64,000 nt of DNA, from NCBI RefSeq assembly GCF_003590775.1, contig NZ_QYUM01000003.1, positions 436,501 through 500,500 on the forward strand, written 5' to 3'. The notes below the pieces were generated by a model. The model did not search any database and was not told the origin of the DNA. It saw only the letters and a program-made list of their open reading frames with translations. Below are positions 3,503-63,945 of this stretch, piece by piece. How positions within the stretch are numbered: position 1 is the stretch's first letter; each line of letters begins with the position of its first letter. Made by a program: the position numbers and the translations under genes. The stretch comes from Sphingomonas cavernae (GTDB lineage: Bacteria > Pseudomonadota > Alphaproteobacteria > Sphingomonadales > Sphingomonadaceae).

Positions 3503-3988
3503 GTGAACACGAGGCGGACATATCGCGGTTTCGGGCTGAGTGGCATCGACGGCAAGGGCCGCGTCGCCATCCCCGCAAAGCTGCGCGCCACGCTCGAGGT
3601 CAATTCCAACAACGAACGTGTCATCGCCCTCTCGCGCAGCCGGACCTCGCCTTGCCTTACCGGCTATGACCTGCCCTTTGCCGATATGCTGCCCGATGTC
3701 CTCGCCCAGGAAATGACGGAGCAGGAAGGCGGCGCCAAGCTCAGCCGCGAGAACCTCAACCGCATGGCCTTTGGCGTGGTCGAGGACGTGCCCTATGACG
3801 CGAGCGGCCGGCTCGTCATCCCGCCCTTCATGCGCAAGCTCGGCCAATTGGAAGACCTCGCCTTCTTCCACGGCTCGGGCCACATCATCGAGATCTGGAA
3901 CCCGCATGTGCTGCTGAAGGCCGATGACGTGCCGCCGATGCTTGTCGAGCTCGTCCAGTTCCTGCTCGAAGAAAAGGGCATGAAATGA
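3503..3988 (+). CDS. mraZ: Transcriptional regulator MraZ
   Basis: A 161-residue DNA-binding protein of the AbrB-like double-MraZ fold, the conserved first gene of the dcw cluster. It normally assembles as a ring and represses its own operon. The first copy of the fold shows the signature [15 protein letters not shown] near residue 14. The second shows [15 protein letters not shown] near residue 97. The start is a GTG at 3503, with AGGG just upstream. The next ATG would cut off the first fold. It overlaps rsmH by four bases (ATGA). The array of five CCCC blocks at 3336-3380 is its probable target. Confidence 0.93.
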
Positions 3989-33256: not shown

Positions 33257-33385
33257 TCAGTCGATCGCGTCTTCGCCGGCTTCGCCAACCGATTTGATGT
33301 CCTGGCCAGCGCCTTGAACGGTGTTGCACGCAGATACGAGCAGGCCGCTCGCGATCATCATCAACGCCAGATATTTGCGGATCAT
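33257..33385 (-). CDS. Entericidin A/B-like small lipoprotein
   Basis: A 42-residue protein too short for usual ORF cut-offs. Signal peptide MIRKYLALMMIASGLLVSAC ends in the lipobox VSAC. The mature part NTVQGAGQDIKSVGEAGEDA is characteristic of the entericidin (EcnA/EcnB) family. GGAGG lies 7 bases upstream of the ATG at 33385. An EcfG-like promoter (GGAAC-N17-CATT) lies about 50 bases upstream. Such lipoproteins are often stress-induced envelope components. The specific role is unknown. Confidence 0.85.
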   Translation of the reverse strand: MIRKYLALMMIASGLLVSACNTVQGAGQDIKSVGEAGEDAID

Positions 33386-33431: not shown

Positions 33432-33457
33432 AATGCGCGAAAAGCCGAATCGGTTCC
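33432..33457 (-). promoter_or_regulatory. EcfG-like promoter for the entericidin-like gene
   Basis: On the - strand, GGAAC (33457-33453) is followed after 17 bases by CATT (33435-33432). The general stress sigma factor EcfG of alphaproteobacteria reads GGAAC-N16/17-CGTT, so this has one mismatch in the -10. Confidence 0.5.
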
Positions 33458-33483
33458 GAAACGACGAGGCGGGATGACGGGAA

Positions 33484-33586
33484 TAAAATGAGGCCCGAAC
33501 ATGCCACCGGGGGGGAGGGGGTTGGCATGTCCGGGCCCTTGTCTTGGATAGCGAGAGCGGGGGGGCAAAAGGTCACTATCCAAGAT
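33484..33586 (-). ncRNA. Candidate stress-induced small RNA with two C-rich loops
   Basis: No ORF is present on either strand. On the - strand, two hairpins follow each other. Hairpin 1 has a 10-bp stem, TCTTGGATAG (from 33585) with CTATCCAAGA, and a loop carrying seven C in a row. Hairpin 2 has a 15-bp stem (GGCCCG.ACATGCCA with one G-U pair) and a loop reading CCCCCTCCCCCCC, followed by TCATTTTATT, a terminator-like tail. A perfect EcfG promoter lies directly upstream, placing the start near 33586 and giving an RNA of about 100 nt. C-rich loops can pair with Shine-Dalgarno sequences of mRNAs, as in the cuckoo RNAs of Rhodobacter and sX13 of Xanthomonas. It may belong to an already reported sphingomonad RNA family such as SuhB. 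I cannot check this. Confidence 0.65.
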
Positions 33587-33590
33587 CAAA

Positions 33591-33615
33591 AACGGGCGGC
33601 GGCGGCTTTGGTTCC
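33591..33615 (-). promoter_or_regulatory. EcfG promoter for the candidate small RNA
   Basis: On the - strand, GGAAC (33615-33611), a 16-base spacer, then CGTT (33594-33591): an exact match to the EcfG consensus GGAAC-N16/17-CGTT. It lies downstream of the phyP stop, outside any gene. Confidence 0.7.
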
Positions 33616-33677: not shown

Positions 33678-35276
33678 TTAGAGACGGGGCGTCTCGTCGC
33701 TGGTTGCCAGGATAAGCGAAAATTCGCCGATTCTTGTGTCGCGAGCGAGGGGTGAACGAAGCTGTCGGGAAAGACCCTCAATGACGCGACCGAAACGGTC
33801 CGCCAGGCGTGCATCAAGCGCCGCGCTTTCGATCAACGCGGACGAACAAACGGACAAACGCGCGCTTCCCGCATCGACTGGGCGCAGCGTGATCGCGATG
33901 CGGGCACGCGCATCGCAGCTCATTGCGAGTTCGATCAGTTCGGTCAGCAGAAAGGCTACCGGCACCGCGACATCCTGGGTGACATAGCAGGTCGCCAGGT
34001 CGAGCGTGATGATGGGGCCGTGTTCGCCTTCGGGTACGGATGCACGCAGATTCTGGGCCAGTTCCCCCACCAGCTTGCGCAGCTCAACGCCGCGACTCTC
34101 TTCCAGTTCGGCATAATGATTGCGGTGGACCACAGAGAGCGCGTCGACACGGCGCTGGATCGAGGCATAAGCGCGCGCGACATCCGGGGCATTGGCGCCG
34201 CGTGCGTGCAGGTTGATCAGGCTGGCGATGACCTGGAGATTGTTCTTCACGCGGTGATGCACCTCGCGGGTCAGGCGCGTCTGACGCGCGAGCCCCTCGG
34301 CAAGCTCGGCTTCGTGCGTGGAGATCATGCGGGTGATCGTGTGGAAGGTCGAACCGAGCTGACGCAACTCGTGCGCCGATGTCGGTTCCTGGATGGGTTC
34401 GAGGATCTCGCCCGGCTGGTAGGCTGAAACCTCTCGCTCGAGCCGGCGCAGCGGTCGGATGAGCAGCCGGTCGACCACCAGCCAGCCGATCGCGGCAGCC
34501 GCGGCCCACATCACGAGCGGCAGGAGGATCGCGACGATCTCGGCAGCGCTGAACGGCTCGCGCGCGACGGTCATTTCGGCGGAAAGACCGGTGGTGCCAA
34601 CCGGCGCAGACAGCGTTTCATAGCCGGCAAGGCCGGGCTCGCCGGTATATTCGATCAGCGTCAGGCTCTCGTCTGGTCCGACAAGCGCCAGCGCGTAATC
34701 GACCGTGAAGCCCCCGGGCGCGCCAACAGCAGCCAGCGCTTCACGCGAATATACGATGACGCCAGCATGCGACGTGCTGCTCCCGACCACGATCTCGAGT
34801 CGTCCGTTCTGCAACTCGATCCGGGGCACGCCAGTGGCCGGCAGCGACAAGGTGCTCGGCCTGCGGGGCGCAAAGGCAGGCGTGGCGCATATGGGGGTGG
34901 AAGCGGGGCCGAATATCGCGAAGGGCGCGGCCGAGCCGCCCTGCGCGGACATGATCCCCGACAGTCGCGCGCAGATCGCGGGATCTTCCGACTGGTCGCC
35001 GAGTGCTTCCATGGCGACACGTGTCGCCGAAATGTCGGAGGCGATCGTCGCCGCAAGCTTCCGCGTGCTTTCAGTCAGGGCGATTCGCATTTGCGCCTGG
35101 TTTTCGAGATCAGCGGTGCGACTCGACTGCAGGGTGGCGAAAAAGGCGATCAGGCCAAGGGGCAGAAGCGCGAGGCTGAGGATCAGGAAGAGCTTGAAGC
35201 CCGTCGACAGATTCGCAAGACGCGGCTCTCGCAGCGCCATGCGGGCTGCGTTAGCGCCGGAATCGCGCGGCTTCAC
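33678..35276 (-). CDS. phyP: PhyP-like HisKA_2 sensor protein, negative regulator of the general stress response
   Basis: A 532-residue membrane sensor. It has a membrane helix at about 27-50, a periplasmic domain (51-245), a second helix (246-270), a HAMP-like linker, and a HisKA_2 dimerisation domain with REVHHRVKNNLQVIASL (His pair 340-341). The ATPase domain looks degenerate: where the N-box Asn should be, the sequence reads ELIELAMSC, and I find no DxGxG motif. In Sphingomonas Fr1, the kinase encoded next to nepR (PhyP) dephosphorylates PhyR and keeps the response off, and this gene fits that description. It starts with GTG at 35276, six bases after nepR, so the two are co-transcribed. 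Confidence 0.8.
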   Translation of the reverse strand: MKPRDSGANAARMALREPRLANLSTGFKLFLILSLALLPLGLIAFFATLQSSRTADLENQAQMRIALTESTRKLAATIASDISATRVAMEALGDQSEDPAICARLSGIMSAQGGSAAPFAIFGPASTPICATPAFAPRRPSTLSLPATGVPRIELQNGRLEIVVGSSTSHAGVIVYSREALAAVGAPGGFTVDYALALVGPDESLTLIEYTGEPGLAGYETLSAPVGTTGLSAEMTVAREPFSAAEIVAILLPLVMWAAAAAIGWLVVDRLLIRPLRRLEREVSAYQPGEILEPIQEPTSAHELRQLGSTFHTITRMISTHEAELAEGLARQTRLTREVHHRVKNNLQVIASLINLHARGANAPDVARAYASIQRRVDALSVVHRNHYAELEESRGVELRKLVGELAQNLRASVPEGEHGPIITLDLATCYVTQDVAVPVAFLLTELIELAMSCDARARIAITLRPVDAGSARLSVCSSALIESAALDARLADRFGRVIEGLSRQLRSPLARDTRIGEFSLILATSDETPRL

Positions 35277-35282
35277 GCCGCT

Positions 35283-35471
35283 TCAACCGAGCTTGCCCAG
35301 AAGATCGAGCATTTCGGAAGGGACGGCCTCATCTACGGTTTTCTGGTACACGGAGCGGAGGGCCTGCCCGACGTCGCGGCTATTGGCCGGACGGGTCGAC
35401 CCTGCCCGCTTTTCCTTTCTGGCGCCTGCGGAAGACGGGTCCGACTTTTTTACTTTATCTTTTGTCGACAC
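35283..35471 (-). CDS. nepR: Anti-sigma factor NepR
   Basis: Small protein that binds EcfG under normal conditions and is pulled away by phosphorylated PhyR. The C-terminal half has the NepR motif DVGQALRSVYQKTVDEAVP followed by EMLDLLGKL. I chose the GTG at 35471 (62 residues), which has GGGGGA 10 bases upstream. A TTG at 35504 would add 11 residues but has no ribosome site. It is followed closely by phyP and divergent from phyR. Confidence 0.85.
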   Translation of the reverse strand: MSTKDKVKKSDPSSAGARKEKRAGSTRPANSRDVGQALRSVYQKTVDEAVPSEMLDLLGKLG

Positions 35472-35590
35472 CGGCGGTGAATCCCCCTGCACAGCTACTT
35501 GCAAAGCCCGAACACAGGCACCTCTCTGGCCGAAAACCCCTCGTCAATCAAATGGCAAGACGCGTGCGGCGTATTTGATGATTGGTGGAT

Positions 35591-35719: not shown

Positions 35720-36514
35720 ATGTCGCTTGGTCAGCAACTGGCGCCGCATCTGCCCTTCCTTCGCCGCTATGCGCGCGCCCTTACGGGCAGCCAAAGCCAC
35801 GGCGACACTTATGTCCGTGCGACGCTCGAAGCCATCGTCGATGCTCCCGAACAGTTTCCGCGCGACGTCGATCCGCGGCTCGGTCTCTATCGGACCTTCC
35901 AGGCGATCTGGTCGTCGACCAATTTTGATGGTGAGGGACCCGTAACCGAAGGTCAGCAGCATGAAACTATCGCTCAGGCGCGGCTGGCGCAGATTACTCC
36001 GCTGTCGCGGCAGGCGCTGCTGCTCACCTCGATGGAGGGTTTCACCACCGAGGATGCAGCCTATCTGATCGACTCCGACACGGAGGAGGTCGATACGCTC
36101 GTCGCCGAGGCTTTGGCCGAAATCGAGCGCCAGACGCGCGCCGATGTGCTCATCATCGAAGACGAGCCGATCATCGCCATGGATATCGAGACGATCGTGC
36201 GCGATCTTGGGCATGACGTGACGGGCGTCGCGGTTACGCGCGACGAAGCCGTGGCGCTGGCGAAGGCACGCCGGCCCGGGCTGGTGCTGGCGGATATTCA
36301 ACTCGCCGACGACAGCAGCGGCATTGACGCGGTAAAGGACATATTGCGAGAGTTCAGCGTGCCGGTGATCTTTATCACGGCCTTTCCCGAACGCCTGCTG
36401 ACGGGCGAGCGGCCAGAGCCGACCTTTCTCATCACCAAGCCGTTTCAGCGCTCCACGGTGAAGGCAGCGATCGCGCAAGCGCTGTTCTTCGACCAGGCGA
36501 CTGTCCCTGCATAG
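35720..36514 (+). CDS. phyR: Response regulator PhyR (sigma-like plus receiver domain)
   Basis: Anti-anti-sigma factor of the general stress response. It has 264 residues. The N-terminal half (1-135) resembles an EcfG sigma factor (LPFLRRYARALTGSQSHGD ... LTSMEGFTTEDAAYLI) and captures NepR. The C-terminal receiver (about 141-264) has the acidic pair Glu147/Asp148, the phosphoacceptor Asp192 in LVLADIQLAD, Thr in FITAFPE and Lys in ITKPF. The start ATG at 35720 has AGGAG 10 bases upstream. Divergent from nepR. Confidence 0.95.
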   Translation: MSLGQQLAPHLPFLRRYARALTGSQSHGDTYVRATLEAIVDAPEQFPRDVDPRLGLYRTFQAIWSSTNFDGEGPVTEGQQHETIAQARLAQITPLSRQALLLTSMEGFTTEDAAYLIDSDTEEVDTLVAEALAEIERQTRADVLIIEDEPIIAMDIETIVRDLGHDVTGVAVTRDEAVALAKARRPGLVLADIQLADDSSGIDAVKDILREFSVPVIFITAFPERLLTGERPEPTFLITKPFQRSTVKAAIAQALFFDQATVPA

Positions 36515-36826: not shown

Positions 36827-37492
36827 ATGATGGGCAAGGACATAACTCAAACATTGACGGACCATTCCGACAGCGACGCGGACCTGGACTCGCCGGCTCC
36901 GGAGCACGTGTCCCTGGGGGACGACGAGTTCAAAACCGAACTTGGCGCTGTCATTCCCCACCTGCGTGCCTTTGGCCGATCTCTCTCGGGCAATGCCGAT
37001 CTTGCCGACGATCTGGTTCAGGAAACGCTGATGAAGGCCTGGGCGGCGCGCAAGCGCTTTCAGGCGGGCACCAATATGCGCGCCTGGACCTTCATCATCC
37101 TGCGCAATCTCTATCTCTCGCAGATGCGCCGCGCGCGCTTCAAGGGGGAGTGGGATGATCTCACGGCGGACAAGATCCTGGCGGCGCCTGCAAGCCAGGA
37201 TCGGCATGTCGAACTGGCCGACATGCACCGCGCGCTTATGCTGCTCCCACAGCCTCAGCGAGAGGCCCTGATCCTCGTCGGAGCGGGCGGCTTCGCCTAT
37301 GAGGAGGCGGCCGAAATTTGCGGCGTCGCGGTGGGCACGATCAAAAGTCGTGTCGCGCGGGGGCGTGTGGCGCTCGAGCAGATCATGCAGGACAATACGC
37401 TCAGCCCGCGCAGCGAGCACGAGGGCGATACCGGGCGTTCGGCGCTTGAGACGATCATGGAACAGGTGGACGAACTCAGCCGCGATCGCTGA
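36827..37492 (+). CDS. ecfG: General stress sigma factor EcfG
   Basis: ECF15-type RNA polymerase sigma factor. It has 221 residues. After an acidic N-terminal extension of about 40 residues, region 2 (LRAFGRSLSGNADLADDLVQETLMKAWAA, about 46-75) and MRAWTFIILRNLYLSQMRR are seen. Region 4 (LPQPQREALILVGAGGFAYEEAAEICG, about 140-170, with GTIKSRVARGR) completes the sigma factor. It is held by NepR and released by PhyR-P. ATGATG start, with GGGGA just upstream. Confidence 0.94.
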   Translation: MMGKDITQTLTDHSDSDADLDSPAPEHVSLGDDEFKTELGAVIPHLRAFGRSLSGNADLADDLVQETLMKAWAARKRFQAGTNMRAWTFIILRNLYLSQMRRARFKGEWDDLTADKILAAPASQDRHVELADMHRALMLLPQPQREALILVGAGGFAYEEAAEICGVAVGTIKSRVARGRVALEQIMQDNTLSPRSEHEGDTGRSALETIMEQVDELSRDR

Positions 37493-62100: not shown

Positions 62101-63924
62101 TCACAATTCGGCGAGCGCGAGCATCGCCGAACCGCCACGTTCGGCCTCATCGGCGCCGTGGCGCATCAGCGCGAAGAGCTCGCGTCCGGTGCCCATCTCG
62201 ACGGGCGGACGCGGCGCGGGCTTGCGGGCCTGCCAGATCTCGTCGTCGACCAGAGCCTCGATCTCGCCGGTATTGGCGCTGACGCGGACGATATCGCCGT
62301 CGCGCAGCAACGCGATCGGACCATCGCACCAGCCCTCGGGGGTGAGATGGATCGCGGCAGGCACCTTTCCGCTCGCGCCCGACATGCGGCCGTCGGTGAC
62401 GAGCGCGACGTTGAAGCCCTTGTCCTGCAATACGCCAAGCGCCGGGGTGAGTTTGTGGAGTTCAGGCATGCCATTGGCCTGCGGGCCCTGGAAGCGGACG
62501 ACGACGACGACATCGTGTTCGAGCTCGCCCGCCTTGAAGGCCGCAAGCACCTGATCCTGGTCGGAGAAGACACGGACTGGCGCTTCGATCGTCCAGCGCG
62601 CCTCGTCGACCGCGCTCGTCTTGATGACCGCGCGGCCGAGATTGCCCTGCAGCAGCCGCATACCGCCATCGCGGCGGAAAGCGCTGGCGGGTGGGCGCAG
62701 CATCGTGTCGTCGCGCGTCTCGGCGGGGGCGTCGATCCAGGTGAGCGCGTCATTCTCCAGCGCGGGTTCCTGACCATATGGATCGAGCCCGCCCGTCCAG
62801 ACGGTCATGATGTCGCGGTGAAGCAGACCCGCGGCGAGCAGCTCTCGAATCACGAAGCCCATGCCGCCCGCGGCGTGGAAATGGTTCACGTCGCCCGCGC
62901 CATTGGGATAGACGCGCGCAACGAGCGGCACGACCGCGGACAGGCGGTCCATGTCCTCCCAGTCGATGATGATCCCCGCCGCACGCGCTATAGCGGGGAG
63001 GTGGATGGCGTGGTTGGTCGATCCGCCCGTCGCGAGCAGGCCGATCGCGGCATTCACGACCGCCTTTTCATCGACGCAGTGACCCAGCGGGCGATAGTCA
63101 TTGCCGTCCCAGCCGATCTCGGTGACGCGGTGGACCGCAGCGCGCGTCAGTTCCTGGCGGAGTTTCGTGCCCGGATTGATGAAGGCGGCGCCGGGTACGT
63201 GGAGCCCCATCATCTCCATCATCATCTGGTTGGAATTGGCGGTGCCGTAGAAGGTGCAGGTGCCCGCGCCATGATAGGATGCGGCCTCGGCTTCGAGCAG
63301 TTCGTCGCGGCTCGCCTTGCCTTCGGCATAGAGCTGGCGGACGCGCTGCTTTTCCTTGTTGGCGAGGCCCGAGGGCATCGGGCCCGCGGGGATCAGGATC
63401 ATCGGCAGATGGCCGAAGCGCAGCGCGCCGATCAGCAGGCCGGGGACGATCTTGTCGCAGATGCCGAGCAGCGTCGCGCTTTCGAACATGCCGTGGCTGA
63501 GCGCTATTGCCGTACCCATCGCGATATTGTCGCGGCTGAACAGTGAAAGCTCCATGCCGAGCTGGCCCTGCGTCACCCCGTCGCACATTGCTGGAACGCC
63601 GCCCGCGACCTGCGCGGTCGCGCCCTTTTCACGCGCAAAGACCTTCATCTGCTCGGGATAGCGACCATAGGGCTGATGCGCCGAGAGCATGTCGTTATAG
63701 GCGCTGACAATGCCGATGTTCATCGCCTTGCCGCTGCGGATGACAGCCTTGTCATCTGCCGCAGCCGCGAATCCGTGGGCGAGGTTGCCGCACGAGAGCG
63801 TGGGACGGTGGACGCCCTTTTCGCGTTCACGATCGAGCAGCTCGAGATAGGCGGTCCGCCCTTTTTTCGAGCGGCTGATGATGCGGTCGGTGACCGCCGC
63901 GATTTCGGGGTGGATCTTGGTCAT
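62101..63924 (-). CDS. edd: Phosphogluconate dehydratase
   Basis: [4Fe-4S] dehydratase of the IlvD/Edd family that converts 6-phosphogluconate to KDPG. It has 607 residues, normal length. Cluster Cys residues lie in [19 protein letters not shown] and [27 protein letters not shown] near 510 is the conserved C-terminal loop. With eda it completes the pathway's two unique steps. Upstream genes are outside the window. Confidence 0.95.
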
Positions 63925-63945
63925 TTCGGCCCCCCCGCACCATCG

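Follow-up and report, generated by a model that had tools for sequence, protein, structure and literature searches.

A candidate EcfG-driven small RNA with C-rich loops in the general stress locus of Sphingomonas cavernae

Work on the alphaproteobacterial general stress response (GSR) relies on sphingomonads as one of its main models. The sequence-only reading of the window (the whole stretch of 64,000 nt that was analysed) had proposed a small RNA under EcfG control whose two C-rich loops are functional, located in the general stress locus on the same strand as nepR and phyP. The placement is confirmed: the locus order is ecfG-phyR on the + strand, nepR-phyP-RNA-entericidin on the - strand, and a convergent tatC. 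The proposal itself is strongly supported at the level of sequence by conservation, covariation, and fixed promoter spacing. The stretch is probably a gene in its own right that encodes a regulatory small RNA of about 105 nt in Sphingomonadaceae; it would be driven by EcfG, and the C-rich loops of its RNA would pair in trans with G-rich mRNA sites. The RNA and its parts are as follows; the ends of the RNA are estimates based on promoter spacing, the model match, and the terminator.

33591..33615, - strand: EcfG-type promoter of the small RNA, GGAAC-N16-CGTT (sequence; conserved in homologous copies)
33481..33586, - strand: predicted small RNA, about 105 nt (model match 114 bits; fold z = -7.6)
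33542..33585, - strand: 5' hairpin, or hairpin 1 (fold; 9 of 9 stem pairs with double changes among diverged members)
33559..33565, - strand: C7 run of loop 1, a presumed pairing site (6-9 C in all listed copies)
33491..33538, - strand: 3' hairpin, or hairpin 2, with a C-rich loop, presumed intrinsic terminator stem (plain MAFFT alignment: double changes in 15 of 16 pairs)
33509..33521, - strand: CCCCCTCCCCCCC (C5-U-C7) in loop 2, another presumed pairing site (almost all copies C-rich here)
33481..33490, - strand: T-rich tail 3' of hairpin 2, presumed terminator (sequence; terminator scan)

The promoter claimed at 33615-33591 is present: direct reading of the - strand gives GGAAC at 33615-33611 and CGTT at 33594-33591, with 16 nt between them. 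The motif alone was discarded as proof, as GGAAC-N16/17-CGTT has 30 matches in the 4.24-Mb genome vs 61 for the reversed control, i.e. no enrichment. It is significant because it is conserved in 152 of the 153 distinct copies listed by hairpin-pattern searches that did not use the promoter (there are at least 153 such copies). In 149 of these 153 listed copies the promoter ends exactly 9 nt upstream of GGATAG, and in 133 it does so in the form GGAAC-N16/17-CGTT. According to the position-wise comparison of aligned copies, conservation is 0.86-0.99 across GGAAC and 0.87-0.99 across CGTT; promoter and RNA positions are conserved, the promoter spacer and the upstream sequence are not. A study of the EcfG regulon in Sphingopyxis granuli likewise gives GGAAC-N16-CGTT (PMC7083833). 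From the known EcfG consensus we infer that transcription of the RNA would depend on EcfG.

Folding bears out the earlier description of a stretch of roughly 100 nt with two strong hairpins. The minimum free energy is -52.4 kcal/mol vs -27.7 ± 3.3 kcal/mol for shuffles (z = -7.6), and none of 200 shuffles is as low. Loops of seven C and CCCCCTCCCCCCC and the T-rich tail, all three part of the same description, were also found in place. In the predicted ensemble the C bases of both runs are mostly unpaired (all but the first C in the loop 1 run). Among the 165 listed copies, the loop 1 run has 6-9 C in every one and exactly 7 C in 145, while loop 2 takes the form C3+TC4+ in 120 and is C-rich in nearly all. 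Hairpin 2 is followed on the - strand by CATTTTATT (direct sequence reading), and a terminator scan reports a terminator-like site at the tail, 33481..33490, with a chance mean of 0.5.

Relatives of the RNA are found by BLASTn in the genus and the family. A 36-base pattern of hairpin 1, with the promoter excluded, matches 43 of 298 genomes of the order and has 0 control matches. A looser pattern, applied to the named genome collection, gives at least 120 stretches, and the genera among the matches listed are Sphingomonas, Sphingomicrobium, Sphingosinicella, Stakelama, Hephaestia, Parasphingopyxis, and Sphingorhabdus. The sequence-only reading had named conservation of the stems and C-rich loops in related genomes as a check; it was run and passed, with both hairpins covarying. 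In the plain MAFFT alignment of 27 sequences, double changes occur in 16 of 27 pairs, with 59 double-change cells vs 15 in shuffled and at most 9 in slid controls; here hairpin 1 is nearly invariant and the covariation sits in hairpin 2. Among 30 diverged members, double changes occur in 26 of 27 pairs (slid controls 9-12), with 168 double-change cells vs 40 shuffled and at most 33 slid; this alignment, however, was fitted to the structure, and the MAFFT result is the unbiased one. Antisense model matches are palindrome artefacts and were excluded from A4. The aligned copies show selection on both stems and on the C-rich loops.

The same alignments bear on what kind of product is made. Open reading frames of 45-131 aa mechanically cross the region, and the RNA might thus encode a small peptide, as a coding or dual-function RNA. 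This hypothesis fails, however, because the C-runs differ in length between copies (6-9 in loop 1, at most 16 in loop 2) and hairpin 2 varies by compensatory change. The sole widely shared start-like triplet, TTG (152 of 165 listed copies), directly precedes the variable C-run, and no reading frame is conserved across the 165 listed copies, so that a peptide is extremely improbable.

The 36-nt core of hairpin 1, GGATAGYGA...GCCCCCCCGCTCTCGCTATCC, is nearly invariant among copies, including the stem and the GCUC beside the C-run, which is beyond the needs of a simple seed. Such constancy would suit an RNA that acts via a protein, its C-rich hairpins binding or titrating an RNA-binding protein instead of pairing with mRNAs. 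In diverged members, however, the entire stem is replaced along with the loop flanks around a retained C-run, a pattern better suited to base pairing, and no candidate protein is known; action via a protein is therefore considered unlikely, and pairing with mRNAs is preferred. Stem 1 is replaced by GAGCAGCG/CGCTGCTC in five of these relatives (L229-L231, L233, L234), by GGACGGCA/TGCCGTCC in L232 and L235, and by CAGAATGGCA/TGCCATTCTG in L236 and L237, with the C-rich loop 1 and an EcfG-type promoter kept in each case. Except for L232 and L235, they also keep the entericidin-tatC neighbourhood. Three further copies lie downstream of tatC in seemingly negative genomes (L248, L264, L271).

The neighbouring features of the window are the following.

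33257..33385, - strand: entericidin-family small lipoprotein gene (PF08085, 26.9 bits with a cut-off of 23.3)
33432..33457, - strand: separate EcfG-like promoter of this downstream gene, GGAAC-N17-CATT (sequence; usual in relatives)
33678..35276, - strand: phyP-type HWE/HisKA_2 histidine kinase, upstream neighbour (domain match)
35283..35504, - strand: nepR anti-sigma factor (PF18557)
35720..36514, + strand: phyR response regulator (PhyR models of Pfam and NCBIfam)
36827..37492, + strand: ecfG-type sigma factor (Sigma70_r2 and r4_2; position in the phyR-nepR locus)

Since the RNA sits between the phyP and entericidin genes on their strand, it might be merely untranslated sequence, namely the 3' end and terminator of the nepR-phyP transcript or an entericidin mRNA 5' leader. 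It has, however, its own promoter at a fixed spacing, and its 5' hairpin is conserved far beyond the needs of a terminator. The RNA is not a phyP 3' end because other loci (L224, L225, L229-L237) have no phyP nearby upstream. It is not a leader either, because in Sphingomicrobium-type loci (L048-L066) no gene follows it on its strand and the convergent 3' end of tatC comes directly next, 99-192 nt from the RNA start. Moreover, in 99 of 108 listed loci a second EcfG-like promoter, usually with CATT, lies between the RNA and the entericidin gene, past the terminator. An untranslated-sequence origin is thus very unlikely: the RNA gene is independent of the neighbouring genes. As for the entericidin-like lipoprotein, the recurrence of this promoter across loci suggests that it may be a core EcfG target beside the RNA.

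Regarding distribution, model R2 at E <= 0.01 finds the RNA in 135 of 299 genomes of the family and 51 of 96 genera, and at E <= 1e-6 in 39 of the 96 genera sampled. The latter is the safer number because weaker matches without an EcfG promoter are mostly look-alikes; among 21 weaker matches inspected, ten have the EcfG promoter, though it is absent from the model. Roughly half of the sampled family genomes have no model match (the many-genome model searches use strict filters, and weak copies may be missed), and the RNA is thus not essential to the stress response. No EcfG-linked copy was found outside Sphingomonadaceae when models R1 and R2 were run on 289 and 385 genomes sampled from the class; the 385 class genomes outside the family gave three weak model matches, all without an EcfG promoter. 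Likewise, no C-rich EcfG RNA was found within about 1.5 kb of nepR in other class genomes, a span that would be too small for the present RNA too. The genome of the window carries a single copy. Two EcfG-driven copies each are present in G016, G009, and G718, although for the stronger copy of G718 the promoter was not read; the second copies, or sibling RNAs, are L300 and L301 (G016), L308 (G009), and L304 (G718).

Model matches without an EcfG promoter (L238-L240, L243, L297-L299, L305-L307, L309-L311, L315-L318) were not counted, being regarded as terminators or as C-rich RNAs of other kinds. Among them, L297:1501-1599, an RNA from another alphaproteobacterial family, has two hairpins with loops of C7 and C5 and is a possible analogue. 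Four sequences of Sphingomonadaceae (L305, L306, L310, L311) also have two hairpins and are C-rich, and perhaps belong to further C-rich RNA families.

Searches of Rfam 15 at curated scores gave no match in the window, nor did the RNA of ten related loci have one. Among studied RNAs the nearest analogue, not named in the sequence-only reading, is GsrN of Caulobacter crescentus. This EcfG-dependent RNA is often encoded close to the GSR locus; its C6 5' loop pairs with a G-rich katG leader and raises KatG, katG activation being its best-studied effect (PMC5869019). Its authors proposed relatives in Caulobacteraceae and Rhizobiales, used proximity to ecfG-nepR-phyR as a criterion outside Caulobacteraceae, stated that Erythrobacter litoralis has no apparent gsrN-like gene, and covered no Sphingomonas (PMC5869019). 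Both RNAs are about 105 nt long and have an EcfG/SigT-type promoter; each exposes a C-rich loop towards the 5' end and has a 3' hairpin of the intrinsic-terminator type. Processing into a stable 5' isoform and Hfq dependence also belong to the description of GsrN. Both also lie near ecfG-nepR-phyR, the present one in most loci, although some relatives have it at tatC, away from phyP. In contrast to GsrN, the terminator loop of the present RNA is also C-rich, complementarity to the katG leader is not seen, and its models have no EcfG-linked match outside Sphingomonadaceae in the two class samples of 289 and 385. On the best reading, the RNA would work in the manner of GsrN, which it resembles in promoter, position, and the C-rich loop on the 5' side; it is likened to GsrN by the latter's description and is not filed as an ortholog because homology could not be established.

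The comparison with SuhB that had been suggested for this RNA was negative. The suhB family (RF00519) has no match at the site even at E = 10, and is a separate family with two members elsewhere in the same genome (G000:C2:690272-690347 and 1396083-1396160, L041 and L042, 47 bits each). SuhB of Sphingopyxis granuli, 61 nt long and elevated at high growth rate (PMC6563040), resembles the present RNA as a trans-acting small RNA in sphingomonads. Scr3202 of Streptomyces (RF02833) also has two hairpins with C-rich loops, and matches weakly (31.5 bits, E = 0.011); membership was rejected, the score being below the curated 52 and the phylum distant, and the likeness is read as convergence. C-rich hairpin loops, as in the present RNA, are further known from the Rhodobacter CcsR 'cuckoo' RNAs and Xanthomonas sX13, to which no Rfam match at curated scores connects it. 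The CcsR RNAs form an array downstream of a small DUF1127 protein gene under RpoHI/RpoHII control, whereas the present RNA is a single copy with an EcfG promoter.

As for the mode of action, firing of the PhyR-NepR switch would lead EcfG to transcribe the RNA, which the 3' hairpin and T-rich tail would terminate. The exposed loops, with the invariant GCCCCCCCGCUC in loop 1 and CCCUCCCC-type sequences in loop 2, would then pair in trans with G-rich mRNA sites, probably around ribosome-binding sites, mostly lowering translation. Repression of translation is the putative effect; stabilisation or activation of targets is possible instead, as for GsrN with katG.

No conserved target was found among those compared (katG and ftsZ). 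The ftsZ gene, proposed as a possible target in the sequence-only reading, found no backing: G-rich ftsZ sites also occur, mostly weaker, in genomes without the RNA, and among 46 crude gene starts of the window ftsZ does not rank in the best 12. Its GGGGAG is kept in close relatives, with duplex energies that overlap those of RNA-less genomes and are confounded by kinship. The G-rich site before the DUF418 gene, the other possible target named in that reading, was located in the window. As a conserved target, katG was rejected, since its leaders lack a G-run in most RNA-bearing relatives and share none; in G000, G003, G004, and other genomes no run of at least 4 G precedes the katG start, whose assignment is uncertain in some of them. 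A perfect 10-nt complement of the invariant loop 1 core, GCGGGGGGGC, lies at 63929-63938 (- strand), just ahead of edd, the phosphogluconate dehydratase gene, which starts at 63924. In nine relatives edd is absent from stretches of up to 20 kb at the expected distance. GCGGGGGGGC may derive from an upstream repeat element.

The literature searched on the sphingomonad general stress response covers the protein side only. It describes no EcfG-dependent small RNA in sphingomonads, a provisional result as subscription papers are mostly outside it, and the searched text of two sphingomonad GSR transcriptome studies mentions no such small RNA. The RNA represents a real family of a known functional kind, apparently undescribed so far. 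More doubtful, and offered tentatively, is the wider reading that it is the founding member of an undescribed family that serves the sphingomonad general stress response as its post-transcriptional arm, in which two anti-Shine-Dalgarno-like C-rich loops would brake many mRNAs with G-rich ribosome-binding sites and EcfG-driven paralogs would act as siblings in some genomes. With a widely conserved EcfG-wired RNA, if true, the sigma factor would have a means of lowering gene expression as well. The generality of a GsrN-like RNA arm in Alphaproteobacteria becomes directly testable, and a covariance model is ready for a family absent from Rfam 15.

Finally, a minor observation concerns L248, one of the copies downstream of tatC, for which no correspondence with the published Zymomonas small RNAs was found. 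Its genome is probably that of a Zymomonas, and small-RNA data already in print might include the transcript. In this 2.1-Mb genome a CRISPR array (2418-2747) lies between tatC and the entericidin-RNA pair (3566-3667).
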